Translations under genes and position numbers: made by a program
NCBI RefSeq assembly: GCF_019668485.1
Contig: NZ_AP024619.1
Location: forward strand, 2,287,757 to 2,351,756
Source: Gelria sp. Kuro-4
Lineage (GTDB): Bacteria > Bacillota > DTU030 > DUMP01
Length of the DNA: 64,000 nt
Direction: 5' to 3'
Notes under the pieces: model-generated
What the model was told of the DNA's origin: nothing
The model's database searches: none
What the model saw: the letters and a program-made list of their open reading frames with translations, nothing else
In this document: positions 1 to 63,632 of the stretch, piece by piece
Layout: the number at the start of each line of letters is the position of its first letter
Numbering within the stretch: the stretch's first letter is position 1

Positions 1-1162
1 AAACTACGGCACCGGGGTCCTGGGTGAGCGCGTCTCTCAGCTTCGCTTCGTCCAGCGTCAGCGTTCCGTCTGCGGAAACACCAGTCCCTATAGCTCCTGT
101 GCTTATTCCTATGTCCGCTAAGCTGTTCAATGGGCCCGTGGCCGAGGTAACTGGGTCAGTAACCAAGCGGCGTAGCTGTGCCTGAATACCCTGCAAGCCG
201 CTGTCGCCCAACAACACTCCTGCTTCCTTGGTTGCCGCGTTGTAGGACATCTTTTCCTTGATCGCGTTCCAGGTGGTATTGTATTGATCCACAAAGGCTT
301 TTACAGCATCTACTACCTTTTGCGTATCAGCAGCAACAGTGACGGTAGTGCCTTCGTAACCCTCCCAAGTGCCTGCCGTTCCAACAAGTTTACTTACACC
401 AACGAGATCAATAGTTACCCCGTTTATGACATCGGTCAAGTTATTGCTAGAGCGCGTTATCTTGGCACCGTCAACATAGAAAATAGCATCCTTGCCGCTC
501 ACGACATATGCCTCAGTATCATTTACCGGATAATCTGCGGTGGTAGGATTCAATAAGCCAAGTTTATCCCACACGTTCCCATTCCCAACATTACCATTTA
601 AAGTAATGTCTGAAGCGGCACCAGTTTGATTCGCCGTGATTACAAGCCGGTTGTCTACCACCGAGGCAGTCACTCCTACTGCGGCCGTGTTGTTAATCTT
701 AGCCGCCAGGGCGTCCAGGGTATCACCGCTCGTGACACCGGTAATGCTCTTGCCGTTAATAGTGATAGTTAAGTCTGTTACTCCTAAATCGGCAAGCGTA
801 GTTGTTGCACTGCCCACCCGCACCGACCACTTGCGTTGGGCAGTAGCCAGTTGCTGGACTTTGAAGGTATACGTCCCCAGCGCTGCCGTTGATCCTGCCG
901 CAACTTTTACTACCTGCTCGTTACTAGACGAAGCAGCTTTGCTCAAGAACGTACTCTCGAGCTTCAGGTCTGCCAGTTTGCTCTGCAAGGTAGACAGACT
1001 GGTGCGGATCTGCCGCCAGGCGTCCTGCTTGGCTTTCAGCTGGTCCTCTTTCCCTTGTAGCAGGACCAGCGGACGCCGTTCGATCTCCATGAGCTTGTTG
1101 ATTATATCCGTTGTATTTAGCCCTGAAGCCAGGCCGTCAAAGGTTATGGGACTTAAGGACAT
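1..1162 (-). CDS. fliD: Flagellar hook-associated protein 2 (filament cap), C-terminus outside window
   Basis: Open from an ATG at 1162 to the window edge, about 387 codons, with an AAGGGGGT ribosome binding site upstream. The start MSLSPITFDGLASGLNTTDI is the classic FliD N-terminus. A helical stretch and a beta-rich middle with VQQLATAQR and a FliD-like DLGVTDLTITINGK segment follow. FliD caps the growing filament outside the cell and helps fold exported flagellin. It is the last visible gene of a minus-strand run fed from the glycosyltransferase and flaG. In relatives fliS and fliT follow, which would lie beyond the left edge. Only the extreme C-terminus is missing. Confidence 0.95.
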   Translation of the reverse strand, partial: MSLSPITFDGLASGLNTTDIINKLMEIERRPLVLLQGKEDQLKAKQDAWRQIRTSLSTLQSKLADLKLESTFLSKAASSSNEQVVKVAAGSTAALGTYTFKVQQLATAQRKWSVRVGSATTTLADLGVTDLTITINGKSITGVTSGDTLDALAAKINNTAAVGVTASVVDNRLVITANQTGAASDITLNGNVGNGNVWDKLGLLNPTTADYPVNDTEAYVVSGKDAIFYVDGAKITRSSNNLTDVINGVTIDLVGVSKLVGTAGTWEGYEGTTVTVAADTQKVVDAVKAFVDQYNTTWNAIKEKMSYNAATKEAGVLLGDSGLQGIQAQLRRLVTDPVTSATGPLNSLADIGISTGAIGTGVSADGTLTLDEAKLRDALTQDPGAVV

Positions 1163-3750: not shown

Positions 3751-4578
3751 TTACCGCAGGAGCTGCAGCACCGCTTGCGGGGCCATATTCGCCTGCGCCA
3801 GCATAGCAACGCCCGCCTGCTGTAGGATCTGCGTCTTGGTGAAGTTCATCATCTCTTGGGCCATATCTGCATCCCTGATGCGCGACTCGGAAGCAGTCAA
3901 GTTTTCAGAAGCCACGCTCAAATTGGCGATGGTGTGCTCGAGGCGGTTCTGAACAGCACCAAGGTTGGCGCGCTGGATGGAAACATAATTGATAGCACTA
4001 TCCAGCGAAGCAATGGCAGCACTAGCAGCAGCAGCATCGGCAACGCTAATTCCAGAAATCGTCATGGCGGCGGTATCGGCCGCACTGATTTTCACGTTAA
4101 TATTCTGGCCGGCATTTGCACCAATTTGTAAGTTCAGGCCCGTAGTTGCAAGTGTCCCACCATCCAAAAGAAGCTGCGCATTGAACTGCGTCGTTTTGGC
4201 AATCCTATCGATTTCTTCAAGCAGCTTGTCAACTTCTGTCTGAATAGCGTTGCGATCCGCTGTGGTTAGCGTATCATTTGCCGCCTGGACCGCCAGTTCC
4301 CGCATGCGCTGCAGGATGCTGTGGGTCTCGGTAAGAGCACCTTCTGCCGTCTGAATCAGAGAGATGCCATCCTGCGCATTCCTAACTGCCTGGTTCAAGC
4401 CGCGTACCTGCGCACGAAGCTTTTCGGAGATGGCCAGCCCTGCGGCATCGTCCCCGGCCCGGTTGATCCTGAGACCAGACGAAAGCTTTTCCATCGCCTT
4501 GCTAAGGTTGGTCGAGGTCACAGTGAGGTTCCGCCACGCATTGAGAGCCTCAAGGTTCGCATTGATCCGAAGTCCCAT
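3751..4578 (-). CDS. fliC: Flagellin
   Basis: 275 residues when started at the ATG at 4578, which has GGAGGAGG eight bases upstream. A longer reading frame to 4728 lacks a site and would add about 50 non-flagellin residues. The N-terminal D0/D1 domain reads MGLRINANLEALNAWRNL ... LSSGLRINRAGDDAAGLAIS, and the C-terminal D1/D0 domain ends in QAGVAMLAQANMAPQAVLQLLR. The variable centre is short (about residues 140-200), so the filament surface region is small and Ser/Thr/Ala-rich. It is transcribed alone from a sigma-28-like promoter and closed by a terminator, as expected for an abundant late flagellar product. Confidence 0.97.
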   Translation of the reverse strand: MGLRINANLEALNAWRNLTVTSTNLSKAMEKLSSGLRINRAGDDAAGLAISEKLRAQVRGLNQAVRNAQDGISLIQTAEGALTETHSILQRMRELAVQAANDTLTTADRNAIQTEVDKLLEEIDRIAKTTQFNAQLLLDGGTLATTGLNLQIGANAGQNINVKISAADTAAMTISGISVADAAAASAAIASLDSAINYVSIQRANLGAVQNRLEHTIANLSVASENLTASESRIRDADMAQEMMNFTKTQILQQAGVAMLAQANMAPQAVLQLLR

Positions 4579-17325: not shown

Positions 17326-19098
17326 TCAGTCTTCCGGCACGGCCGGAAGGGTGAACCAAAAGGTAGAGCCGCGGCCGACCTCGCTCGTAACACCCACTCG
17401 GCCCCCGTGGGTCTCGATGATTTCCTTGGCGATGGCGAGCCCCAGACCGGTCCCGCCCAGGGCGCGGGACCGGGATTTTTCTACGCGGTAAAAGCGTTCC
17501 CAGATGTGGGGAAGGTCCTCCGCCGGAATGCCGGGCCCCTGGTCCTCCACTGCCACGGTTATGTTCCCGGTCGCAGAAAAAGCCCTGAGGCTGATCGTGC
17601 TGCCGGGTGGGGAGTAACGAATCGCATTGGTCAGGAAGTTGACAAGAACCTGCTCGACACGGTCCTCATTGGCCAGAAGGAACGGCAGGTCGGGCGGAAC
17701 ATCCTGTTCCACTGTGAGACTTTTCGCAGAAACTTGCTCACTGAGCTTAAAGAGGACGCGCCCAAAGAGGTCGGCGACATCCACCGCATTCAGATCCCAT
17801 TTGGGTTGCCCCGACTGCAGGAGAGAGAGCTCCAGGATATCGTTGATTAAGGCTTTCAGGCGCAAGGTTTCCTGATAGATCACTTCAAGGTACTGCTTCG
17901 GATCGCGAGTCACTTCGTCCAGCAGGGCCTCAACAAAACCCTGGATGGCGGTAAGCGGGGTGCGCAGCTCGTGCGACACATTGGCCACGAAATCCCGCCG
18001 CAGCTGGTCCACCTGCTTGAGCTCCGTAACGTCCTCCAGCACGGCCACTGCGCCGCTCACCGCCTCCCCCGGTTCCACCAACGGTGTGACGTGTGTTATG
18101 ACACAGGTCTTGCCATCGTTCAGCACGAGTTCACCGCTCCGGCTTTCTTTGCACTTAAGTACATCGGCGAACAGCTCGGCCAGTTCCGGGCAGCCCAGGG
18201 AGCCGATTGGGGCCCCTTGCAGGACAGCACCGCATGCCGTCCCCAGGTTTCTCGCCACGCCGGGATTGGAAAAAAGGATACGGCCTTCTTGATCGACGGC
18301 GATCACTCCTTCGCTCATGTTGGCCAGGATGTCCTCTATTTTTCTTTTCTCTTGTCTGAGGGCGCCGATGGTGCGATCCAGAGCAACCGCCAGGTCATTG
18401 AAGTTCTGCGCGAGTTGCCCCACCTCGTCGTGAGAGGTTACCGGTACCTGTTGCTTGAAGTTCCCCTCCGCCATGGCCAAGCTGATACGGCCCATTTCTT
18501 TCAAAGGACGGGAGATGGAACGGGAAAGATAAAAGCCGAGCAATGTCGCAAAGAGCACGGCGATTCCGGCGGCGCTTACAATGAGGCGCTGCACCGCTCT
18601 GATGGTCGCGGCGATATCGGCCAGGGGTGTAAAGATAACGAGCGCGCCCATCACCTCGCCCTGGTCCTTCAGGGGGATCACAGCCCGCAGAATGTCTTGC
18701 CCGAAGGGACTTGCAGGTACGCGCCCGCTGGCAGGTTCCCCCCGCAAGACCTTCAAGCTGGTCGCCGGGTCAAGGAGCGGCGGCGGCCGGCCCGGCGGCC
18801 TTGGGTCGGCGCCGGGGGCCAGATCCGCCCGCTCCAGCACCACCAACCGGCTCCCGGGAAGGTTACGGAGGTGGCTGCCCCACACGCGCAGGTTTTCGCG
18901 CGCGGTGCCGATGGAGGTCTGCAGAGCCTGCGCCACTTGCTGGCCCTGTTGGAGCAGTTCTTTTTCTTTGACCGAGTAATAGAAGCCGGCGAAAAGGCGC
19001 GACGTGGTTATGCCCACCGCCAGCAGGGTTACGAGAGCGACAGCCAAGTATGACAGGAGGAGTTTCCCGAAAAGGGTGCGCGGCGACTTGAGTCTCAT
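17326..19098 (-). CDS. Membrane sensor histidine kinase (PhoR/WalK type)
   Basis: 590 residues from an ATG at 19098 with GAGGGTGG upstream. TM1 near residues 12-36 ([18 protein letters not shown]), an extracytoplasmic sensor of about 130 residues, TM2 ([18 protein letters not shown]), HAMP ([17 protein letters not shown]), a PAS domain ([18 protein letters not shown]), HisKA with [19 protein letters not shown], and HATPase with [20 protein letters not shown] and GGTGLGLAI. It should phosphorylate the OmpR-type regulator encoded 14 nt upstream. Context points to sensing of envelope stress or a toxic compound that is then exported by the MacAB-like pump. Confidence 0.93.
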
Positions 19099-19112
19099 GC
19101 CTAGTGCCACCC

Positions 19113-19796
19113 TCAGTTTTGGTTTACTTCAAACTTGTAACCCTTGCCCCAGATGGTTTTTATGTAGGAGATCCCGGCGGGGCGAAGTTTTTCGCGCAGA
19201 CGGCGGACATGGGTATCCACCGTGCGCGCATCGCCGAGATACTGGTACCCCCAGACAGACTCGAGCAGCTGCTCGCGGGTGAATACGCGCTCCGGCCGGG
19301 AGGCCAGGAACCAGAGGAGTTCAAACTCCCGGGGGGTCAGCTGGACCTCCTCACCCGCCACCTCCACCCGGTTGGCGGCTTTATCCAGCATAAGCTGCGG
19401 GTAATTGAGGACCTCACGCTGCGCCTTGCCGGCCCCTTGGGCGCGGCGCAGAACCGCCTTGACCCGTGCCACCATTTCGCGGGGACTGAAGGGCTTGGAA
19501 ATGTAGTCGTCCGCCCCGAGCTCGAGACCCAGCACCCGGTCAAATTCCTCCGACTTTGCTGTGAGCATGATGATCGGCGTGGAAGAGCTTTTGCGAACCT
19601 CCTTGCAGATCGCCCAGCCGTCTACTTCCGGCAGCATGATGTCCAGGAGGATAAGATCATACCGGCCCTGCTCCAGCTTCGCGAGCGCCTCACGACCATC
19701 GTGGGCTGTTTCCACAGTAAAAGATTCTTTTTCGAGGTAAACGCGCACCAGATCACAGACCGGCTGCTCATCCTCCACTACCAGGATCGTGGTCAA
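19113..19796 (-). CDS. OmpR/PhoB-family response regulator
   Basis: 227 residues from a TTG at 19796 with GGAGG seven bases upstream; the open frame continues to 20057 but without family similarity. Receiver domain TTILVVEDEQPVCDLVRVYL with phospho-Asp in LILLDIMLPEVDGW and the Lys in GADDYISKPFSPREM. Winged-helix domain VQLTPREFELLWFLASRPER ... ARTVDTHVRRLREKL. It is paired with the kinase at 17326-19098. PhoB-type regulators bind 11-bp direct repeats, and such repeats lie upstream of the divergent exporter operon. Confidence 0.95.
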   Translation of the reverse strand: MTTILVVEDEQPVCDLVRVYLEKESFTVETAHDGREALAKLEQGRYDLILLDIMLPEVDGWAICKEVRKSSSTPIIMLTAKSEEFDRVLGLELGADDYISKPFSPREMVARVKAVLRRAQGAGKAQREVLNYPQLMLDKAANRVEVAGEEVQLTPREFELLWFLASRPERVFTREQLLESVWGYQYLGDARTVDTHVRRLREKLRPAGISYIKTIWGKGYKFEVNQN

Positions 19797-19896
19797 AGCA
19801 GCCACCTCCCGTCTCTCGTAATTCCACATAAAGCAGCTGAATCCTCTAGACATAATGGGCGAGGGAGAGTTTTCTCCCTCGCCTGCGTTAACGGAG

Positions 19897-20580
19897 TTAG
19901 GACTGGGAAGAGGTACCGGACGAAGGCGCGTCGGTTGGAGGCGCACCGAATCCGCCCCTCCCGTGAGGTCCGCGCCCGCCGCCGAAACCGCCGAAGCCGC
20001 CGAAACCACGCAGGGACTTCGCCTTTTCCAGCTGTTCAGCCGTGAGGATGGACTCAAACTTCTTTTGGTACTCTTGGGTGACTTGCTGCAACTGGGTCCG
20101 GAGGTCGCTCACCTCTTTGGTCTTGGCGTCCACAGTCGCCTGGTCGGGGTTTTTCTCCCACCGGAGCTGCCGAAGCTCAAACACGGCGTCCTGCAGCTTG
20201 GCTCTCAAGTCCTTAGTTCCCTCATACATTTCGCGCTGCAGGTCTTGAATCTTCTGTACCTGCTCGTCGGTAAGCCCCAGCTCAGCGGCCGGACGCGCAG
20301 CACCGGGGAGGGAACCGCGCCGAGACTTAACCTTTTCCAGCTGCTCAGGCGTGAGGATGGACTCAATTTTCTGCCGGAACTCCTGGGTAGATTGCTGCAA
20401 CTGGGTCTTCAGATCCTGGATTTGCTTCACCTGCTCATCCGTAAGCCCCAGGTCGGCCGCCAACTTTGTAGGATCGGCGGCGATTCTGCCGCCGAAGCCC
20501 CAGGGCGCGGCGGCCGCCAGCTGAGCGACGCCCAGGACCAGCGCCAGGGTGAGCGTCAGCCACACGGCTTTCTTTTTCAT
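19897..20580 (-). CDS. Exported LTXXQ (Spy/CpxP-like) protein with two repeat units
   Basis: 227 residues with a signal peptide MKKKAVWLTLTLALVLGVAQ LAAAA. Two copies of a helical unit each contain LTDEQV(K/Q)(Q/K)IQDL, then a Q-rich helix (QLQQSTQEFRQKIESIL or QLQQVTQEYQKKFESIL), then LT(P/A)EQLEKVK or LEKAK. The LTXXQ motif defines Spy and CpxP, envelope chaperones and stress sensors of Gram-negatives. The tail is Gly/Phe-rich (FGGFGGFGGGRGPHGRGGF). It is first in the minus-strand run before the response regulator and kinase, so it could modulate that sensor as CpxP does CpxA; this is inference. Confidence 0.85.
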   Translation of the reverse strand: MKKKAVWLTLTLALVLGVAQLAAAAPWGFGGRIAADPTKLAADLGLTDEQVKQIQDLKTQLQQSTQEFRQKIESILTPEQLEKVKSRRGSLPGAARPAAELGLTDEQVQKIQDLQREMYEGTKDLRAKLQDAVFELRQLRWEKNPDQATVDAKTKEVSDLRTQLQQVTQEYQKKFESILTAEQLEKAKSLRGFGGFGGFGGGRGPHGRGGFGAPPTDAPSSGTSSQS

Positions 20581-20773
20581 CCTCGCTTCGCTCCTTTACC
20601 GTAAGTATCGCAGGACGGTTGCTGGTTACGCCAGTCGAGTTCGAACAGCTCGCCTCCTTTTCCTCAGCCTGGGGGCGGCCACCGGTGAACCGCCTTCGAG
20701 ACTTATTGTAGCCGGCGTTTGTGACGATTCTGTGACCAAGGTGTGAGGGAACGTCGAACTTTCACGGGGAATT

Positions 20774-20935
20774 ACGTTCGGTTTTCGGAAATGGTTTGAT
20801 CACAATTCGTTCACAAATTTAGGATAGAATTACCACATGAAGATGAACTTCCGGAGCGGCCACTGCTGCGGATTTCGCTTTTCGGAAAAGGTTTCATCAC
20901 CATTACTTCACAAATTCCAGAATAGAATTAGGCGA
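20774..20935 (+). promoter_or_regulatory. Duplicated promoter/operator block with PhoB-box-like sites before the exporter operon
   Basis: Two direct repeats of about 52 nt start near 20776 and 20878. Both read TTTTCGGAAA-GGTTT, then TCAC(A/C)AT, then TTCACAAAT, then ATAGAATTA. In each, TCACAA/TCACCA and TTCACAA are spaced 11 bp, as in PhoB-family half-sites, and are followed by a TAGAAT -10-like element. The divergent OmpR-type regulator is the obvious candidate binder. The 20581-20987 gap holds nothing else recognised. Confidence 0.6.
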
Positions 20936-20987
20936 GGCAAGGCAACGGAAGGAGGGCCGGCTTGAGGAAGGCGAAGGAGCGGCGGTT

Positions 20988-22688
20988 GTGACTGTTTCCG
21001 GCAGCCACTGTAGCCAAGAGCGAAAACATAACTATGAGGTGAGGAGCTTGCAGGTCAAATCCCGTACTTTCGTTTTCATAGGCACAGGTTTAGTTCTCGC
21101 GCTGCTGGCCGGATACGCGGGCCTTCATTTGCTTGGACGGCCTAAGGCCAGCGCTCAGCAAGCCGCCAAGACGGTTCAGGTCAGCCGTGGAGCCATTGAG
21201 GTCGCGGTCAGCGGCAGCGGCAACGTGGCTTTTGCTGAGGATGTCCAGCTTAAGGCCCAGGCCTCTGGGAAGGTGGTTCAGGTATTGGTAAAGGACGGTG
21301 AGCAAGTCAAGGCCGGGCAGACCCTCTTTGTTCTGGAGAACAGCTCGCTGGAGCTGCAGCGCGAACAGGCGCAAAGCACTGTTGATAATCTGAGTACCGA
21401 GTTGGAGCAACTCCAAAAAGACATGGCAGCGCTGCGCGTAACAGCGCCGCAGGCGGGCAGAATCACCGCCATAGCCGTCGGCGAAGGAGATAAGGTTACC
21501 GAAGGGGCCTCGCTTGTGACGCTGGTCGATGACGCCACCTTCTCCGTCACCGTTCCGTTCCTGAAGCCGCAGCGCGATCAGATCACAGCCGGTCAGGCGG
21601 CCGAGGTTTTCCTGCCCGATTTCCTAAGTTCTCTGCACGGCAAAGTAGTAAGGGTAAGCGGGAGCGGGCAGCCGGGCACCGGCGGGACGGTGGTCTATCC
21701 CGTAACTGTAGAATTCGCCAATCCCGGTGCCCTGACGGAGGGCGTCAAGGCCACCGTCACCGTTCAAACCAAGCAGGGCCCGGTGGAGGCGCTGGAAATG
21801 GGGACGGCCGCGCCCAAAAAAGTCGCGGAGGTCCGCAGCGCCGTCGCCGGCGAAGTAAAGGCGGTCGGCGTAGAGGTCGGTGACAAAGTGCAGCCGGGGC
21901 AGCTTCTTGTAAAGCTTGCCAACGATGACCTGCCCAACCAGCTGGCCCAAAAACAAGACAGCTTGTCCCAGGCGAAGCTCAACCTGGCCACCCAGAACGA
22001 CCAGCTGGCGCGGCTTACGGTAACCGCCCCGATAAGCGGCGTCTTTCGTGAGGTGCAAGAGACGCAGAGCAGCGATGGAACCGTGCTGGGTCCTGTACAG
22101 GTCGGCGATGAACTGAAGCCCAATGACCTCCTCGGGCGGATAGTCAACAACTCCAGCTACGAAGTAGTCGTCAAGATCGATGAGCTCGACATCAGCCAGG
22201 TCCAGCTGGGACAAAAAGCGGAGATAACGGTGGACGCCCTGCCGGGGCAGACCCTGCAGGGGACGGTGACCCAAATCGCGGAGGAAGGTACCGTACAGAA
22301 CGGAGCCGCAGTCTACCCGGTAACGCTCACCCTCCCGCCGACACCCGGCCTCAAAGCCGGAATGACTGCCAATGCGCGCATTCTGGTGGCGGCCAAGGAT
22401 AACGCACTCCTTCTCCCCGTCGAGGCGGTGCAGGACCGGAACGGACGCTTCTTTGTGGCCCTGCCTGCGGCCACAGAATCAACCCAAGGAAAACAGGGCA
22501 GACGGCAGGAAATCAAGGTCGGCCTGCACAACGAGGCTTTTGTCGAAGTGCTCGAAGGTCTCCAGGAGGGCGATACGGTGCTGCTGGCCCAGACCAGCAC
22601 GACCCCGGCTAAGCAAGAAAACAGCGCGCGCCCCCCAATGCCGGGGATGATGCCGGGCGGATTCGGTGGCTCTCGTCCCCGCGCGTAG
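20988..22688 (+). CDS. macA: MacA-like efflux adaptor with two tandem adaptor cores
   Basis: 566 residues from a GTG with AAGGAG eight bases upstream; a TTG at 21048 with GAGGTGA is a competing start. An N-terminal membrane anchor (FIGTGLVLALLAGYAGLHLL) is followed by lipoyl/barrel-sandwich and beta-barrel motifs that appear twice. The first core has LKAQASGKVVQVLVKDGEQV ... LRVTAPQAGRITAIAVGEGD. The second has VRSAVAGEVKAVGVEVGDKV ... LTVTAPISGVFREV. The tail is Met/Pro/Gly-rich (PPMPGMMPGGFGG). Normal MacA has one core in about 370 residues. It probably links the MacB-type transporter to extracellular substrate delivery. The gene is followed at 15 nt by the ATPase gene. Confidence 0.85.
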   Translation: MTVSGSHCSQERKHNYEVRSLQVKSRTFVFIGTGLVLALLAGYAGLHLLGRPKASAQQAAKTVQVSRGAIEVAVSGSGNVAFAEDVQLKAQASGKVVQVLVKDGEQVKAGQTLFVLENSSLELQREQAQSTVDNLSTELEQLQKDMAALRVTAPQAGRITAIAVGEGDKVTEGASLVTLVDDATFSVTVPFLKPQRDQITAGQAAEVFLPDFLSSLHGKVVRVSGSGQPGTGGTVVYPVTVEFANPGALTEGVKATVTVQTKQGPVEALEMGTAAPKKVAEVRSAVAGEVKAVGVEVGDKVQPGQLLVKLANDDLPNQLAQKQDSLSQAKLNLATQNDQLARLTVTAPISGVFREVQETQSSDGTVLGPVQVGDELKPNDLLGRIVNNSSYEVVVKIDELDISQVQLGQKAEITVDALPGQTLQGTVTQIAEEGTVQNGAAVYPVTLTLPPTPGLKAGMTANARILVAAKDNALLLPVEAVQDRNGRFFVALPAATESTQGKQGRRQEIKVGLHNEAFVEVLEGLQEGDTVLLAQTSTTPAKQENSARPPMPGMMPGGFGGSRPRA

Positions 22689-22703
22689 GGAGGCGGAAGA
22701 TAG

Positions 22704-23378
22704 ATGATCGAGCTCAAGAACATAACCAAGACATACCGCATGGGCAAAATCAGCGTTGACGCGCTACGAGGCGTCACACTTTCGGTTGCGGCCGGCGAGC
22801 TGATGGCCATCGTCGGCCCCTCCGGCTCCGGCAAGTCGACGCTGATGAACATCTTGGGCTGCCTGGATGTGCCGACGAGCGGCGAGTACTGGCTGGAGGG
22901 AAAAGAGGTCGGGAAGCTGGCAGACAATGAGCTTGCCCGGCTGCGCAACCAAAAGATCGGTTTCATCTTTCAGAGGTTTAACCTGCTGCCTCAACTCACT
23001 GCCTGGGAAAACGTTCAGGTGCCGCTCCTTTATGCCGGCGTCGGGCTCAAAGAGCGGAGGGAACGGGCCGCCGAAGCGCTCCGCCAGGTCGGGCTGGGTG
23101 AGCGCCTGCACCATCGTCCGAACGAGCTTTCCGGCGGTCAGCAGCAGCGCGTAGCCGTCGCCCGGGCGCTGGTAACGCGCCCGTCTTTCCTCTTGGCGGA
23201 TGAACCGACCGGTAATCTTGACTCTCGCGCCGGGCGGGAGATCACGGAGCTTCTCTTTGCACTAAACAGCAACCGTACCACTGTTATCGTAGTCACCCAC
23301 GATCAGGCGCTGGCCCGGCGCTTTCCCCGGCTGATCGCCATCCAAGACGGGGAAGTAGTTAAGGAGGAGGCAAGCTGA
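22704..23378 (+). CDS. MacB/LolD-type ABC transporter ATPase
   Basis: 224 residues. Walker A GPSGSGKSTLMNILGCLD, Q-loop IFQRFNLLPQLTAWENV, signature LSGGQQQRVAVARAL, Walker B FLLADEPTGNLD and H-loop VVTHD. It energises the permease encoded directly downstream, with which it overlaps in the TGATG stop/start. In E. coli MacB these two parts are fused; here they are separate genes, as is usual in Gram-positives. Confidence 0.96.
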   Translation: MIELKNITKTYRMGKISVDALRGVTLSVAAGELMAIVGPSGSGKSTLMNILGCLDVPTSGEYWLEGKEVGKLADNELARLRNQKIGFIFQRFNLLPQLTAWENVQVPLLYAGVGLKERRERAAEALRQVGLGERLHHRPNELSGGQQQRVAVARALVTRPSFLLADEPTGNLDSRAGREITELLFALNSNRTTVIVVTHDQALARRFPRLIAIQDGEVVKEEAS

Positions 23379-24547
23379 TGGAATTCGTCACGGCAGTTTC
23401 CCTGGCCTGGGAAGGCATTGTGAACAATAAACTGCGTTCTCTCCTGACCATGCTGGGGGTGATCATCGGCGTCGCTTCCGTAATTTCTATGGTCGCCATC
23501 GGCGCCGGCACGAACGAACAGGTTACCCAGCGCATCCAGTCGCTTGGCTCCAACCTGCTCACCGTTCAGGTCGGGGGACGGGGTGCTGCGACTTCGCTGC
23601 GCTACGATCAAGTCATGGCTCTCAGCGAGCTGGCGCACGTAAGCGCCGTAGCTCCGGCCGTAACAGGAAGCGCCACCGTCAAGTACGGTAACAAGTCCCA
23701 GGATACCTCGATCGAAGCAACCAACGCTGATTATGCCTCCGCCCGCAACGTAACCGTTCAAAGCGGCCGCTTTCTCTCTGCGCTGGACATCACGTTCCAC
23801 CACAAGGTTGCTTTGGTAGGAACAGAGGTGGCACAAGAGCTTTTCGGGAACACCAACCCGGTGGGGCAGCGCCTGCTTGTTAACGGAATCGAGTTCACCG
23901 TAGTAGGGCTCTTGGAGTCGAAAGGTGGAAGCGGCGGTATGTCCTTGGACAACCGTGTGCTCATTCCGCTGACTTCTGCCAACCTGGTCCTGGGAGGTCA
24001 GAACATCCGCACCATTTACGTACAAGCGGATTCGCCCGGGACTGTGGATGAGGTGGAAGCGGCCGTGAGCGACTGGCTGCTCAAGCGCTTTCGCGATGAA
24101 GACGCCTTTAGGGTTTTCAACCAGGCCGACATGCTGGCGACGGTGAACGAGGTCACCAAGTCGTTTTCTCTGATGCTGGGCGGGATTGCCGGGATTTCCC
24201 TTCTCGTCGGCGGCATCGGCATCATGAATATCATGCTGGTGTCCGTCACCGAGCGCACCCGCGAGATCGGGATCCGGAAGGCCCTGGGCGCCAAACGGCG
24301 GGATATCCTGAACCAGTTTCTCGTTGAGTCCATGGTGCTCAGCGGCAGCGGCGGGGTCCTGGGGCTGGGTGCGGGTGTAGCTTTTTGCTTCGCCCTGGAG
24401 CGGCTCTTCCAGATTCCGACACGCCTGGCTGTTTTGCCGGCGGCCGTAGCCTTCGGCTCCGCCGTCCTGGTCGGCGTGTTCTTCGGGCTCTACCCCGCCC
24501 GCCGCGCGGCCGACCTGAACCCCATCGACGCCCTGCAGTATGAGTGA
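23378..24547 (+). CDS. MacB-type ABC permease (MacB_PCD plus FtsX domains)
   Basis: 389 residues. TM1 follows LAWEGIVNNKLRSLLTMLGVIIG; a large extracytoplasmic domain spans about residues 45-260; three TM helices follow in the FtsX part (LMLGGIAGISLLVGGIGIMNIMLV, the VLGLGAGVAFCFALE region and AAVAFGSAVLVGVFFGLYPA). TERTREIGIRKALGA is the coupling motif. The gene ends in PIDALQYE, the usual family ending. It would drive mechanotransmission export with MacA and the ATPase. Its last 16 nt belong to a 20-nt stretch repeated exactly at 25134. Confidence 0.95.
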   Translation: MEFVTAVSLAWEGIVNNKLRSLLTMLGVIIGVASVISMVAIGAGTNEQVTQRIQSLGSNLLTVQVGGRGAATSLRYDQVMALSELAHVSAVAPAVTGSATVKYGNKSQDTSIEATNADYASARNVTVQSGRFLSALDITFHHKVALVGTEVAQELFGNTNPVGQRLLVNGIEFTVVGLLESKGGSGGMSLDNRVLIPLTSANLVLGGQNIRTIYVQADSPGTVDEVEAAVSDWLLKRFRDEDAFRVFNQADMLATVNEVTKSFSLMLGGIAGISLLVGGIGIMNIMLVSVTERTREIGIRKALGAKRRDILNQFLVESMVLSGSGGVLGLGAGVAFCFALERLFQIPTRLAVLPAAVAFGSAVLVGVFFGLYPARRAADLNPIDALQYE

Positions 24548-24601
24548 TCCTGGCCCCGGCTCGCGAGACTTGATCCTGGTTTTCCAGGTGCCTGGCACCA
24601 C
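24533..24601 (+). repeat. Family B repeat after the MacB-type permease
   Basis: It begins with the 20-mer CTGCAGTATGAGTGATCCTG, shared exactly with 25134-25153. It continues with a GGCTC and GATCCTGG pattern also present in that copy and ends in the palindrome GGTGCCTGGCACC. The rest of 24602-24823 holds no gene that I can support. Confidence 0.7.
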
Positions 24602-25063: not shown

Positions 25064-25148
25064 GAGCGCAGTCTTTGTGGACACGGCCGGGTGGTTGGCG
25101 TTGGTCAACCGACGCGACCAGCTTCATGAACTGCTGCAGTATGAGTGA
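25056..25148 (+). pseudogene. N-terminal fragment of a PIN-domain toxin
   Basis: A 30-codon frame starting ATGGCTAAG encodes AKSAVFVDTAGWLALVNRRD QLHELLQYE and stops. VFVDTAGWLALVNRRDQLH is the start of a PIN RNase with its first catalytic Asp. The normal 130-residue protein is cut after about 24 residues, where the sequence becomes identical to the 3' end of the MacB-type permease gene (LQYE stop). The fragment cannot be catalytic. Confidence 0.8.
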
Positions 25149-25200
25149 TCCTGATCCGGGCTCAGGCGACCAGATCCTGGCTTGCCGGCTGCCGGGTACC
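25134..25200 (+). repeat. Family B repeat truncating the PIN toxin
   Basis: It shares the 20-mer CTGCAGTATGAGTGATCCTG exactly with 24533-24552. The following about 45 nt are alignable but diverged (GGCTC, GATCCTGG, TGCCGGGTACC). Confidence 0.7.
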
Positions 25201-25328: not shown

Positions 25329-26708
25329 TTAAGGCTGCGGAGCAGCCGGTGCCGGGGTGGGTACCGTGCCCAACGGTTGTTCGGAGCTTGGCTCACCGGG
25401 GGAAACGGTATTCTCGGGCAGCTCTAGCTCGGGTGCCTCGAGAACCTCGGCCGGCACTTCAAGCTTAAGGTTCGGGTCGTAGGTGTACTCGTCGGTCTGC
25501 ATGCTCATCTGCAGGGCCTGGATGGGAATTTCCTCGCCCTGGAACTTGGGTGCATAGGTGATCACCATGCTGTACTCGGCCTTTTTGGTCAGGTAGTCAG
25601 CGGCACCCACGTAGGTGATGCCCCAGAAGGAGAAAGAGTCGATCATCTCGGTGGCCTGGGCCAGAGACTTTTGCATCTCCTCCGCGCCGGCGAATTGCCC
25701 CAGGGCCGCGCTGAGGAACTTCTGGAAATCGTCCACGCGACCGTAGAAGGCGATTTCGTAGACCTTCTGCCCGTCAACCTCGGTGGTACCGAGGAGCTTA
25801 TAATGGAGGTAGTCCTCCATGCCGGGCGGGATCACCTCGGTTTGTTGCTGGGCCTGCTTCAGGATTTGGCCGAGGTCTGGCATCAAGCCCTTCGGATACC
25901 GGAACCAACCGACCTTGCCAGTTTTCGGATCCGGGAGCTTTTGGTACATCTCGCCGTCGGCCAGGTACATTTCGGTAGTCATGGCCTGCTCTTTGCCGTC
26001 GGGGAGGATCATTTTGACCGTGCTGGTCTGGTGAATCCGGTCCGGGAGCACCACTTCCTGGGTGATCTGCATGCTGGGCGCGATGCTCGGTAGCTCATCA
26101 GCGCCTTCAGCCCCCGGCCGCGGGATCAGCTTCATGCTGCCGCTCATAGCAGCGCGCATGGCCTTGATCTCTTTGCTGCGGGCCTGGCTCTTTTTCATTA
26201 TGTCCAGCACGTCTTGGTCGGTGGTGAAGACCTGGCTGAGGAAGGCCGCGCCCTCTTTCTCGCTCAAGGTGGCCGCCGGGTCGCCGCTCACCAGCCCCTC
26301 CCGGCTCAGCCAGGCGTAGAGGTTGTAGCCCCAGTGGCCGGGCTCAAGCTGGGCCGCTGTTTCCTGCGGCGGCAGCACGTCGTCGGTAAGGCCCAGGGTG
26401 CGCCCCACCAGCGCCACCGCCTCCACCCGGGTGATGGGCTGCTCGAGGTCCAGCCCTGCGCCGGGGGCGCCTTTCATAATGCCCTTTTGCGCCAGGAGGT
26501 CCGCCCCTTGGCCTGCCCGGCCAATGCCGCTCGCCTGAACCAGCAGCTGGGCGAACTCGCCGCGCGTCAGTACCCCGTCGGGCTTGGCGACAGCCTTCAA
26601 GAGGTCGGCCTGGCTGGGAGCCGCCGCCGCCACGCCGCTCAGGCTGAGGAGCGCTGCGCTCACCACCAGGGCCACCAGGCGCTTAACCCTTCTTGATCTG
26701 GAATTCAA
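25329..26708 (-). CDS. Exported SLH-domain protein with a DUF6612-like lipoprotein-type C-terminal domain
   Basis: 459 residues from a TTG at 26708, which has GGAGG eight bases upstream; the open frame extends to 26807 without a better site. A signal peptide covers about residues 1-30 (LVALVVSAALLSLSGVAAAA). Next come two or three degenerate S-layer homology segments (LTRGEFAQLLVQASG; ITRVEAVALVGRTLGLTD; HWGYNLYAWLSREGLVSG). The C-terminal half (about 200-430) is beta-rich (MKLIPRPG, TEMYLADGEMYQKLP, YEIAFYGR), like proteins that bind lipids or surface polymers. It likely attaches non-covalently to the cell wall. The Pro/Glu-rich tail is unstructured. Confidence 0.78.
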   Translation of the reverse strand: MNSRSRRVKRLVALVVSAALLSLSGVAAAAPSQADLLKAVAKPDGVLTRGEFAQLLVQASGIGRAGQGADLLAQKGIMKGAPGAGLDLEQPITRVEAVALVGRTLGLTDDVLPPQETAAQLEPGHWGYNLYAWLSREGLVSGDPAATLSEKEGAAFLSQVFTTDQDVLDIMKKSQARSKEIKAMRAAMSGSMKLIPRPGAEGADELPSIAPSMQITQEVVLPDRIHQTSTVKMILPDGKEQAMTTEMYLADGEMYQKLPDPKTGKVGWFRYPKGLMPDLGQILKQAQQQTEVIPPGMEDYLHYKLLGTTEVDGQKVYEIAFYGRVDDFQKFLSAALGQFAGAEEMQKSLAQATEMIDSFSFWGITYVGAADYLTKKAEYSMVITYAPKFQGEEIPIQALQMSMQTDEYTYDPNLKLEVPAEVLEAPELELPENTVSPGEPSSEQPLGTVPTPAPAAPQP

Positions 26709-26728
26709 CCGGAACGCCTCCTTTGCTG

Positions 26729-26945
26729 CCTTTTCCCTACCTTTAGAGACCGTCCGGCGCCCGTGCAGGACGCCGTATGACACAGGTACCACCTCCTTAC
26801 TCCTCAAGCCGCAGTCCAGCCTCTCTCCTCCGCGTACAGAGCGCGGCCGACAAGATGTGTGGGACCATAAAGTGCCGTTTCCCTACCGCTGGATACTGCC
26901 GGCACCCGCGCAGGGCGCCCTAAGGCCGAAGATATCACCTCCCCC
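26729..26945 (-). repeat. Two direct copies of a roughly 70-nt leader element upstream of the SLH gene
   Basis: On the minus strand, copy 1 (26945-26875) and copy 2 (26797-26729) both run from GGAGGTG through GGGCGCC or CGGCGTC, CTGC-CGGG-GCCGG, to GGTAGGGAAA-GGCA. Identity is roughly 70 percent by eye. In copy 1 GTGCCG and CGGCAC can pair around the conserved GGTAGGGAA. I do not recognise a known riboswitch class. No gene is evident in 26709-26963. Confidence 0.55.
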
Positions 26946-47473: not shown

Positions 47474-47519
47474 TTCCTTTCCTCCTCGTCTGCCCGCCCG
47501 GCTAAAACCGGATGTGCCT

Positions 47520-47600
47520 TCGGCAGCCTGGCGATCGTAGCCGCGTGGCTTTAGACCCATGGCTTTGCGCCGCCACCTTTCGGTGACTTTGCCGTTTCGG
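47520..47600 (-). ncRNA. Cyclic-di-GMP-I (GEMM) riboswitch upstream of the HD-GYP gene
   Basis: On the minus strand the element has, in order: GGCAAAGTCACCGAAAGGTG (P1b/P2 with a GAAA tetraloop), GCGGCGCAAAGCCATGGGTC with the hallmark GCAAAGCC, TAAAGCC, a P3 stem, then GGCTACGATCGCCAGGCTGC CGA. These match the consensus of the class I aptamer (GGCAAACC-GAAA-GGGACGCAAAGCC...GGTTGCCGA). The aptamer ends about 45 nt before the HD-GYP ribosome site. No terminator hairpin with a T tract is obvious, so control may be translational. Confidence 0.85.
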
Positions 47601-47744
47601 GCGTTTAGTGACACTATGTAAGAGCATTCGACAACCTGCGTCCATTTCCTTCCATCAGGCGTACTAATTTGATAAGACCTTGATTCCGCGTTGATCAGGC
47701 CCGGCGGCAGCCAGGGCGGACTGTCTGGCCCCGCCGGTTGCACT

Positions 47745-54271: not shown

Positions 54272-54418
54272 CAAAAAGGCCGCCTCAATTTGGAAGCGGC
54301 CTGGGCACTCCTATCTTCCAGAATTGACATTCTGCAGGAATTGGCACATCACCAGGACACCCCCTGGCACGCTGCCGGGTTTCATCGGGCCCGTCCCTCC
54401 ACCTCTCTGGATAAGAGT
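54272..54418 (-). ncRNA. SAM-I (S-box) riboswitch with terminator, upstream of metK
   Basis: Minus strand CTCTTATCCAGAGAGGTGGA GGGACGGGCCCGATGAAACCCGGCAGC, then GTGCCA...GGTGCCAATTCC, as in S-box leaders. The expression platform is a terminator GGCCGCTTCCAAATTGAGGC GGCCTTTTTG at 54302-54272. SAM binding should favour termination. Confidence 0.95.
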
Positions 54419-62600: not shown

Positions 62601-63632
62601 CTAGGGGTGCAGCCCCGGAAAGTCCAGGGCACAGGTTTCCGGATAACCGGCCATCAGGTTGAAGCACTGCACCGCCTGGCCGGCCGCTCCTTTTACCAGG
62701 TTGTCGATGGCCGCCAGCACCACCAGGCGGCGCGAGTGCGGGTCGCGTTCAAAGCCGATGTCGCAGTAGTTAGTCCCCGCCAGGATCTTCGGCTCCGGGT
62801 ACTTGTACACGCCGTGGCGCTCGCTCACCAGGCGGATAAAAGGCTCTGCGCCGTACGCCGCCCGGTACACCTGCCAGATGTCCTTGGCGCTCAAGTCGTC
62901 CTTGAGAAAGACGTGGCAGGTGGTAAGGATACCGCGCACCAGGTCCACCGAGGTGGCCGAGAGGTTCACCTCCACCGGACCGTGGAAGGCCAGCTCCTGG
63001 GCGATTTCCGCCGTGTGGCGGTGCCCCGTGGGAGCGTAGGAGCGTACCACCTGGCTGCGCTCGGGGTGGTGCGAGGCCGGCGACGGGTGGCTCCCGCCGG
63101 CAGAGGAACCGAACTTTCCCTCAATGACCACGCGGTTTTCCACCAGGTCCGCCTTAAAGAGCGGTGCCAGGGCCAGGATGGTGGCCGTGGCCAAGCAGCC
63201 CGCCCCCGCCACCCAGGCGGCCTGTTTGATCGCCGCCCGGTGCAGCTCGGGGATGCCGTAGGCGAAGCGGTTGAGAAGCTCCGGGTGCGGGTGCGTAAAG
63301 CCGTACCACACAGGGTAGGCCGCCGCATCCCTCAGGCGGAAGTCGGCGGAAAGGTCGATAACCCGCGGGGCAAGGGGAAGGAGGGTCTCCGCGCGCGGGG
63401 CCACCGCGCCGTGGGGCAGCGCAATAAAGAGGGCGTCGCAGGGCTTAAGATCCGCCAGGCGGCAGAACTTGAGGGCCGTGCGCCGACGCAGGTTCGGGTG
63501 AACAGCGGTGACGGGCTTCCCCGCGCGCGACTCCGAGGTCACCTGCTGGATCTCGACCTCCGGGTGCCCGAGGAGCAGGCGCAGGAGCTCACCCCCCACG
63601 TACCCCGAGCCGCCGATGATGCTGACTTTCAT
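62601..63632 (-). CDS. lysY: LysY-type reductase, LysW-aminoadipyl phosphate reductase
   Basis: 343 residues. [20 protein letters not shown] nucleotide site, [48 protein letters not shown] with the catalytic Cys (GCLATATIL), and the [10 protein letters not shown] and [11 protein letters not shown] segments of LysY rather than ArgC (where HTHxPE-type loops differ). It reduces the acyl phosphate to the semialdehyde. The start overlaps the lysX stop by 4 nt. Confidence 0.92.

Follow-up and report, generated by a model that had tools for sequence, protein, structure and literature searches.

A candidate envelope-stress module in Gelria sp. Kuro-4 pairing an LTXXQ two-component operon with a divergent MacAB-type exporter and its probably nested adaptor

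In the Cpx system, the LTXXQ protein CpxP is encoded together with an OmpR-family two-component system, and CpxP proper binds and inhibits its cognate kinase. Among Gram-positive MacAB-type exporters, adaptors of the Spr0693 and YknX type are described as one core plus a hairpin domain (PMC5768738, PMC4446572), with a tube into the wall zone proposed for Spr0693 (PMC5768738); two reviews pose as open the question of why Gram-positive bacteria keep the adaptors of tripartite pumps (PMC5985334, PMC4446572). Here we describe a locus within a 64,000-nucleotide stretch (hereafter the window) of Gelria sp. Kuro-4, a member of the Bacillota (contig NZ_AP024619.1, positions 2,287,757 to 2,351,756), whose genome is a single contig of 2.88 Mb. 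A kinase, a response regulator, and an LTXXQ-family protein are encoded on its minus strand, divergently from an adaptor, an ATPase, and a permease on the plus strand. We consider it moderately probable that these genes make up the two operons of one autoregulated envelope-stress response, which drives a MacAB-type exporter whose adaptor is capped. The genes are as follows, in window coordinates:

17326..19110, minus strand: PhoR/PnpS/WalK-type sensor histidine kinase (HAMP, PAS, HisKA, HATPase_c)
19113..19805, minus strand: OmpR/PhoB-type response regulator (Response_reg and Trans_reg_C; putative GTG start)
19897..20580, minus strand: exported LTXXQ-family (ZraP/CpxP/Spy) protein (by Pfam; signal peptide judged by eye)
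21051..22688, plus strand: MacA-type adaptor, probably nested (probable TTG start; the longest open reading frame begins at 20988)
22704..23378, plus strand: MacB/LolD-type ATP-binding cassette (ABC) ATPase (ABC_tran, 125.1 bits)
23378..24547, plus strand: MacB-type permease (MacB_PCD, 168.5 bits; FtsX, 79.0 bits)

The original prediction for this DNA, made from the sequence without database searches, had named a PhoB-type regulator with a PhoR-type kinase, and a MacB pair. Pfam recovers the domains of all four proteins, the two-component genes lying at 17326–19805, outside the span which that prediction had covered. A MacB periplasmic core, an FtsX domain, and an ABC ATPase together identify a MacB-type exporter, with the permease and ATPase scoring under the full MacB equivalog cut-off of 966, a cut-off that covers a fused protein. 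The adaptor start is probably the TTG at 21051, because four orthologs align only from residue 17–21 of the over-reading frame that starts at 20988. A contig search gave only four orthologs, all in Bacillota metagenome assemblies.

Co-regulation of the two arms is suggested by the divergent intergenic region, which contains TCAC[AC] repeats at 11-bp spacing: a triple repeat directed toward the LTXXQ arm and two double repeats directed toward the adaptor, each standing 9 or 10 nt ahead of a TANAAT element. The candidate promoters are:

20705..20746, minus strand: LTXXQ-regulator-kinase promoter (triple 11-bp TCACA direct repeat at 20720–20746; −10-like TACAAT at 20705–20710)
20800..20830, plus strand: first adaptor-arm promoter (TCACA-N6-TCACA, 9 nt, TAGAAT; retained in both congeners)
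20897..20928, plus strand: second adaptor-arm promoter (TCACC-N6-TCACA, 10 nt, TAGAAT)

The second adaptor promoter sits in a 43-nt repeat (20777–20819 and 20874–20916, 86%). Four of the five box matches in the window fall in the divergent intergenic region, with a whole-window expectation from shuffling of 0.18; across the 2.88 Mb genome, the box together with its −10 element matches three times, always at the module, and the reversed-pattern control matches nowhere. In both congeners, the triple repeat is also visible, and all genome-wide matches to a close variant of the pattern (2/2 and 2/2) lie at the orthologous locus, one per arm. Related boxes occur upstream of the adaptor in two further genera (genomes G006 and G007), and the same box precedes an LTXXQ-regulator-kinase operon in G343, which belongs to another family. 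Paired 11-bp direct repeats are a known type of PhoB site in Escherichia coli (PMC2648988), and the PhoB-type regulator may well bind the 11-bp repeats of both arms. The original prediction had tied its case to co-regulation of the divergent transcripts, for which the matched boxes and −10 elements of both arms are strong sequence support. At the level of sequence, the boxes shared by both sides thus support co-regulated divergent arms in a module of the envelope-stress type.

Several observations on the box weigh against this. Across 12 genomes the variant pattern gave 13 matches, of which four (two in G007, one each in G300 and G343) are not tied to such genes, and its reversed control gave five. 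When 19 hand-chosen promoter regions were scored with a consensus from the window and single-base shuffles as control, eight had no convincing box, including all three from locus L130, and two were marginal. Only one of 19 other adaptor loci (L111) carries such a box. As a general feature of LTXXQ promoters, the box was rejected, with one match in 16,249 bp of upstream sequence and 0.12 expected. Separately, a small exported protein at L037:3354–3743 (minus strand) has a perfect TCACA-N6-TCACA repeat at 3907–3922, without a −10 element at the right spacing; a PhoB-type regulator might act there as well.

Kinase, regulator, LTXXQ gene, and divergent adaptor are all retained in both congeners, which are draft genomes at 90–92% completeness, and this points to more than a chance arrangement. 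Downstream of the adaptor of G002 (L033:1–4526), however, no ATPase or permease could be located, and the G001 permease (L032:2745–3914) is broken into two open reading frames; these gaps may stem from the assembly or from decay of the genes. The family's five remaining genomes (G003–G007) yielded no LTXXQ match. Two of these, G006 and G007, contain the adaptor, ATPase, and permease without it, so LTXXQ is not essential to the exporter, and in G006 the exporter also has no adjacent two-component system; these absences weigh against the proposed module. More widely, adaptor relatives (E ≤ 1e-30) occur in 81 of 299 phylum genomes, some as partial matches. The order adaptor-ATPase-permease is retained in 19/19 further adaptor loci, which carry both a response regulator and a histidine kinase in seven cases, one of them in six, and neither in six, with some of these stretches ending at contig ends.

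The adaptor itself falls within the RND_mfp subfamily (TIGR01730; 184.9 bits against a cut-off of 94.9) and outside the MacA equivalog (PRK11578; 76.4 against 342), and profiles find two copies of each half-motif, lipoyl and barrel. An AlphaFold2 model was built from five close sequences; the best of five models has a mean predicted local distance difference test score (pLDDT) of 74.6 and a predicted template modeling score of 0.46, with ten-residue blocks across residues 71–330 at 78–94. In this model, residues 98–126 and 293–320 form single helices of 29 and 28 residues without a hairpin turn. MacA 4dk1_B aligns over 278 of its 285 residues within model residues 42..513 (2.9 Å, Z 17.1), skipping 194 model residues, and MacA 5nik_D scores similarly (Z 17.0). 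A biotinyl domain (2ejf_C) aligns over 69/69 residues within 128..290 (1.2 Å, Z 14.2), and the Spr0693-type 5xu0_B over 223/231 residues (2.6 Å, Z 13.8). The simplest reading of the model is one MacA core (about 42–126 plus 293–513) with a second lipoyl domain and barrel inserted at the hairpin tip. The boundary of this cap is inferred, because the alignments give only range end points. Two adaptor features follow:

21429..21926, plus strand: inserted cap, a second lipoyl domain and beta-barrel predicted to replace the hairpin tip (model residues 127–292, boundaries inferred)
22593..22685, plus strand: disordered Gly/Pro/Met-rich C-terminal tail (model residues 515–545, pLDDT < 50)

The tail had been thought unusual, and comparable tails, with Gly, Pro, and Met making up at least 40% of the last 25 residues, occur in 61 of 129 adaptor homologs. 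The turn of a TolC-docking hairpin is predicted to be absent, given the two turnless helices of the best model and the mid-helix Pro/Gly content of at most 3% among the 129 homologs (model residues 102–120 and 298–318). Linker lengths (first/second, in residues) are 43/43 in 60 homologs, 53/43 in 42, 43/51 in six, 36/36 in six, and other in 15.

Covariation offers a second line of evidence on the pairing of the halves. Four homologs with a first linker longer than 60 residues were removed, leaving 125 sequences. In direct coupling analysis (DCA), block means ranked at fractions of 0.003, 0.029, and 0.026 for nested pairings and 0.829 and 0.575 for tandem pairings, these fractions being positions among shifted blocks and not p-values. 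Mutual information (MI) placed the helix pair at 0.006, with an antidiagonal peak at 416–419 where 418 was predicted. When lipoyl and helix columns were combined in 40 overlapping subsamples, nested pairings exceeded both tandem and unrelated ones in 40/40, and tandem pairings exceeded unrelated ones in 11. The second-strongest single lipoyl pair among the 129 homologs, 155–269 (z 8.1), is also nested. Covariation of the helix lengths (r = −0.22 in 38 homologs, +0.55 in 129) was not accepted as proving the nested form, and it was set aside from the main evidence because it is partly driven by a few long-linker members.

A number of these results run counter to nesting. The nested pairing is read from the best model only, the other four having pLDDT of 53.0–65.2. 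The longer first linker (53 residues) is present in 42/129 homologs, and Pro/Gly reaches 25–29% at model positions 124 and 127, the site of insertion in the 53/43 group; the lengths of the two linkers do not co-vary in either the 53/43 or the 43/51 group. In DCA, the best control block (hA×B2) ranks at 0.083, and a parallel offset of 194, the register of the internal repeat, outscores the antiparallel diagonal. By MI, the lipoyl pairs (0.076, 0.231) are distinct neither from the tandem A1×A2 pair (0.297) nor from the controls hA×B1 (0.058) and A2×B2 (0.097). The strongest single lipoyl pair among the 129 homologs, 286–364 (z 8.3), is of tandem type.

Part of this would fit a true tandem adaptor, in which either lipoyl domain would be completed by a very short hairpin of its own, giving two stacked cores in a row. 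The two copies of each half-motif stand in the order such a protein would have, its strongest single lipoyl coupling would be accounted for, and MI separates nested from tandem pairings poorly. Additionally, in four of the 129 homologs the first linker exceeds 60 residues and is hairpin-length by eye, in three of them in both halves, so that tandem adaptor forms may exist in the wider family. However, the model for the Gelria adaptor shows single helices with cross-paired halves, the tandem blocks rank far behind the nested ones in DCA, and nested pairings come out above tandem ones in every subsample; we therefore regard a tandem architecture here as unlikely. The original prediction probably errs in giving the adaptor two complete cores in tandem: the structure prediction that it had proposed as a check nests the halves instead, and the turnless helices and direct coupling likewise favor a nested cap. 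Its suggestion that the adaptor acts in a different way is plausible, though for another reason, namely the nested cap. As an observation on the family, L238, L242, and L243 have linkers of 64–74 residues in both halves, full-hairpin length by eye, and are possibly tandem ancestors of the single-helix nested form.

The LTXXQ protein belongs to Pfam PF07813 (46.5 bits against a gathering cut-off of 24.3). It had been predicted to be exported with two LTXXQ units; the exported LTXXQ protein is upheld, and the second unit proves to be a partial copy. Pfam scores one full unit at residues 95–190, and 47 residues of the N-terminal region copy the end of it (43–89 matching 146–192 at 59.6% identity); the protein has four LTxxQ motifs, at residues 46, 76, 103, and 179. 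By sequence, its best solved relative is ZraP (E 7.6e-6), followed by Spy (0.033). The structural model reaches pLDDT ≥ 70 only in blocks 111–180. For this confident part, the top Foldseek rows are ZraP, CpxP, CnrX, and Spy chains, and we count the protein as having the ZraP/CpxP/Spy fold, with no Foldseek E-value at or below 0.001 (best 0.064). That best match, ZraP 3lay_A, superposes at 1.0 Å (template modeling score 0.91 by target, probability 1.00), and CpxP 3qzc_A superposes worse (4.3 Å, 0.62 by target). The ZraP equivalog (PRK11546) scores 33.3 bits against 200. The protein has no Cys and a single His, in its tail, making metal sensing by it unlikely.

LTXXQ genes were found in 54 of 398 phylum genomes, the genus of the window included, 49 of them over the cut-off. 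The original assignment of the family to the Gram-negative Cpx system is too narrow in view of this spread and of ZraP, rather than CpxP, as the closest structure. For genomic context, 40 of the 60 listed matches were taken with flanks; the remainder were 16 weaker matches, three from the same genus as the window, and one second unit. Within 4 kb, 18 of these 40 loci have both a response regulator and a histidine kinase, two a regulator alone, one MacAB genes without either, and 19 none of these. Among the 31 loci whose flanks both reach 7 kb or more, regulator and kinase occur together within 3.7 kb in 13, as compared with one at a control distance of 3.7–7.4 kb. The pairing of LTXXQ with a two-component system thus recurs in the phylum, and the linkage is seen again in other families.

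MacAB genes, in contrast, occur no more than 4 kb from LTXXQ at just 2/40 loci, which counts against a general partnership; with the other limits the tally is 1/31 near and 1/31 far, and MacAB as a general LTXXQ partner was rejected. MacAB-type genes are an addition to LTXXQ loci in some lineages: in the genus of the window; in L130, where all six genes share a strand; in L152, where LTXXQ comes after adaptor, ATPase, and permease; and in G343, where ATPase, a single-core adaptor, and permease follow an LTXXQ-regulator-kinase operon. G343 has two LTXXQ-regulator loci on one contig (L173:5256–12505 and L174:2155–3312); the first is the one followed by the exporter genes.

For the two-component system, a Cpx label was rejected, with CpxR at 179.1 bits against 341 and CpxA at 146.2 against 486. 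The kinase also scores under the curated cut-offs of WalK, PnpS (360 against 400), and PhoR (269.6 against 334.2), and the regulator under those of the 25 families listed, including PhoB (247.5 against 296.2). The high, though sub-threshold, scores of the PhoB and PnpS/PhoR models, together with paired 11-bp repeats of the kind also bound by E. coli PhoB (PMC2648988), would fit a phosphate (Pho) system, with the exporter an ordinary Pho-regulon member and LTXXQ a passenger. However, the box with its −10 element is confined to the module in the source genome, and the recurrence of LTXXQ-regulator-kinase linkage in other families would not be expected of a passenger. A weaker point in the same direction is that for five of the eight regulator paralogs the flanks out to about 5.5 kb, judged by eye from the first 70 residues per open reading frame, showed no recognizable phosphate gene. 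We consider Pho membership decidedly unlikely. The divergent genes might instead be chance neighbors without co-regulation, as the rarity of LTXXQ-MacAB adjacency elsewhere (2/40) and the G006 exporter without an adjoining two-component system would allow; the box and spacing that the two arms share, and that recur nowhere else in the three genomes available for the genus, make this very improbable. Finally, the exporter could handle a self-made peptide, as YknXYZ does for SDP, with LTXXQ guarding against the product. Gram-positive MacAB relatives do protect against their own peptides (PMC5985334), and no maturation gene was noticed around the module in a list of open reading frames of at least 80 amino acids, which a small precursor would escape; this possibility is also an unlikely one.

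Omp85 was not found in the source genome, by a search that was positive in 7 of 14 control genomes; its absence fits a single-membrane cell, and the organism is, on this genomic evidence, probably single-membrane. The earlier claim that there is no outer membrane to reach is to that extent borne out, with some doubt left by a TolC-like gene elsewhere in the genome. This genome also contains an RND-type operon (L101:8836–14388; G000:C1, about 814.8–820.4 kb) encoding an AcrA-like protein, a 1049-aa AcrB-like pump, and a 446-aa TolC-like protein whose beta-barrel strands, by eye, are seemingly missing.

The autoregulated operon pair that we favor has computed support in the genes and their domains, the promoter boxes and their near-uniqueness, the LTXXQ linkage, the nested model, and the coupling; the binding of the regulator to the boxes, feedback by the LTXXQ protein, assembly into a tube, and the nature of signal and substrate are proposed. 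A disturbance outside the membrane would be sensed by the kinase, leading to phosphorylation of the PhoB-type regulator, which would occupy the 11-bp repeats standing in for a −35 element on both arms and raise both its own operon, including the LTXXQ protein, and the MacAB-type exporter. Outside the membrane, the LTXXQ protein may act as a chaperone-like buffer for misfolded or amphiphilic material and, by its likeness to CpxP, would probably brake the kinase. The exporter would rid the membrane or wall space of a harmful peptide or amphiphile. The adaptor would be one MacA-type core in which two single helices run antiparallel and bear, at their tip, a lipoyl and beta-barrel cap in inverted orientation, so that a double-ended tube takes the place of a TolC-docking hairpin.

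We think it slightly better than even that the adaptor represents a nested MacA-type class widespread in Bacillota, of which six copies form a closed double-ended tube, wired here to LTXXQ through its own box. In this class, the two helices of the outer MacA core would have between them the threaded halves of an inner, inverted lipoyl and barrel module, and the barrels would form two rings, one near the membrane and one out in the wall zone; such an adaptor would be made for a single-membrane cell and not taken over from a TolC pump. Taking the Spr0693 lipoyl and barrel heights (24 Å each) and about 43 Å for a 29-residue helix, the tube would measure ~140 Å plus a membrane-proximal part, near the 154 Å above the membrane of the Spr0693 assembly model (PMC5768738). 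If true, the lipoyl and barrel far end would be a direct answer to the question posed by the reviews, contacting the wall or gating the tube instead of docking to a channel. With adaptor relatives so common in the phylum, the nested form may help explain the role of such adaptors in cells without an outer membrane, and the promoter box makes a Gram-positive LTXXQ stress circuit directly testable. Every part is of a known family, and neither such an arrangement nor a nested or two-lipoyl adaptor was found described in the openly licensed literature, preprints not covered; passages of PMC5985334, PMC5768738, PMC4446572, PMC8277102, and PMC13328181 likewise mention no adaptor of this form.

Other features of the window lie apart from the module. 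Just past it is a DUF6612-domain exported protein (25329–26807, minus strand). A short repeated intergenic element lies downstream of the permease (24547–24562 and 25148–25163) and, with one mismatch allowed, matches three times in the window (the third at 63164) where 0.17 were expected. A c-di-GMP-I riboswitch (47519–47603, minus strand, 76.3 bits) and an S-adenosylmethionine (SAM) riboswitch (54308–54417, minus strand, 81.2 bits) were also identified.

Compared with known systems, the exporter shares with Gram-negative MacAB(-TolC), as represented by E. coli and by MacA of A. actinomycetemcomitans, the MacA core fold, the MacB_PCD and FtsX domains, the ATPase, and consecutive genes. It differs in that ATPase and permease are separate genes, in that Omp85 was not found in this genome, and in the predicted replacement of the TolC-docking hairpin tip by a lipoyl and beta-barrel cap. 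With Spr0693-0694-0695 of Streptococcus pneumoniae and YknXYZ of Bacillus it has in common that it is a Gram-positive MacAB-type exporter. The LTXXQ protein resembles CpxP, Spy, and ZraP in its Pfam family, its ZraP-like C-terminal unit, and an N-terminus that by eye is signal peptide-like, and it is set apart by its occurrence in Bacillota, its PhoB/PhoR-type two-component partner, its extra 47-residue partial copy, and its lack of Cys and single tail His. Like CpxRA-CpxP, the locus encodes an extracytoplasmic LTXXQ protein with an OmpR-family two-component system, and autoregulation is likely; unlike it, the best model scores are to YycF/PhoB and WalK/PnpS, far above CpxR/CpxA, and the controlled neighbor is a MacAB-type exporter.

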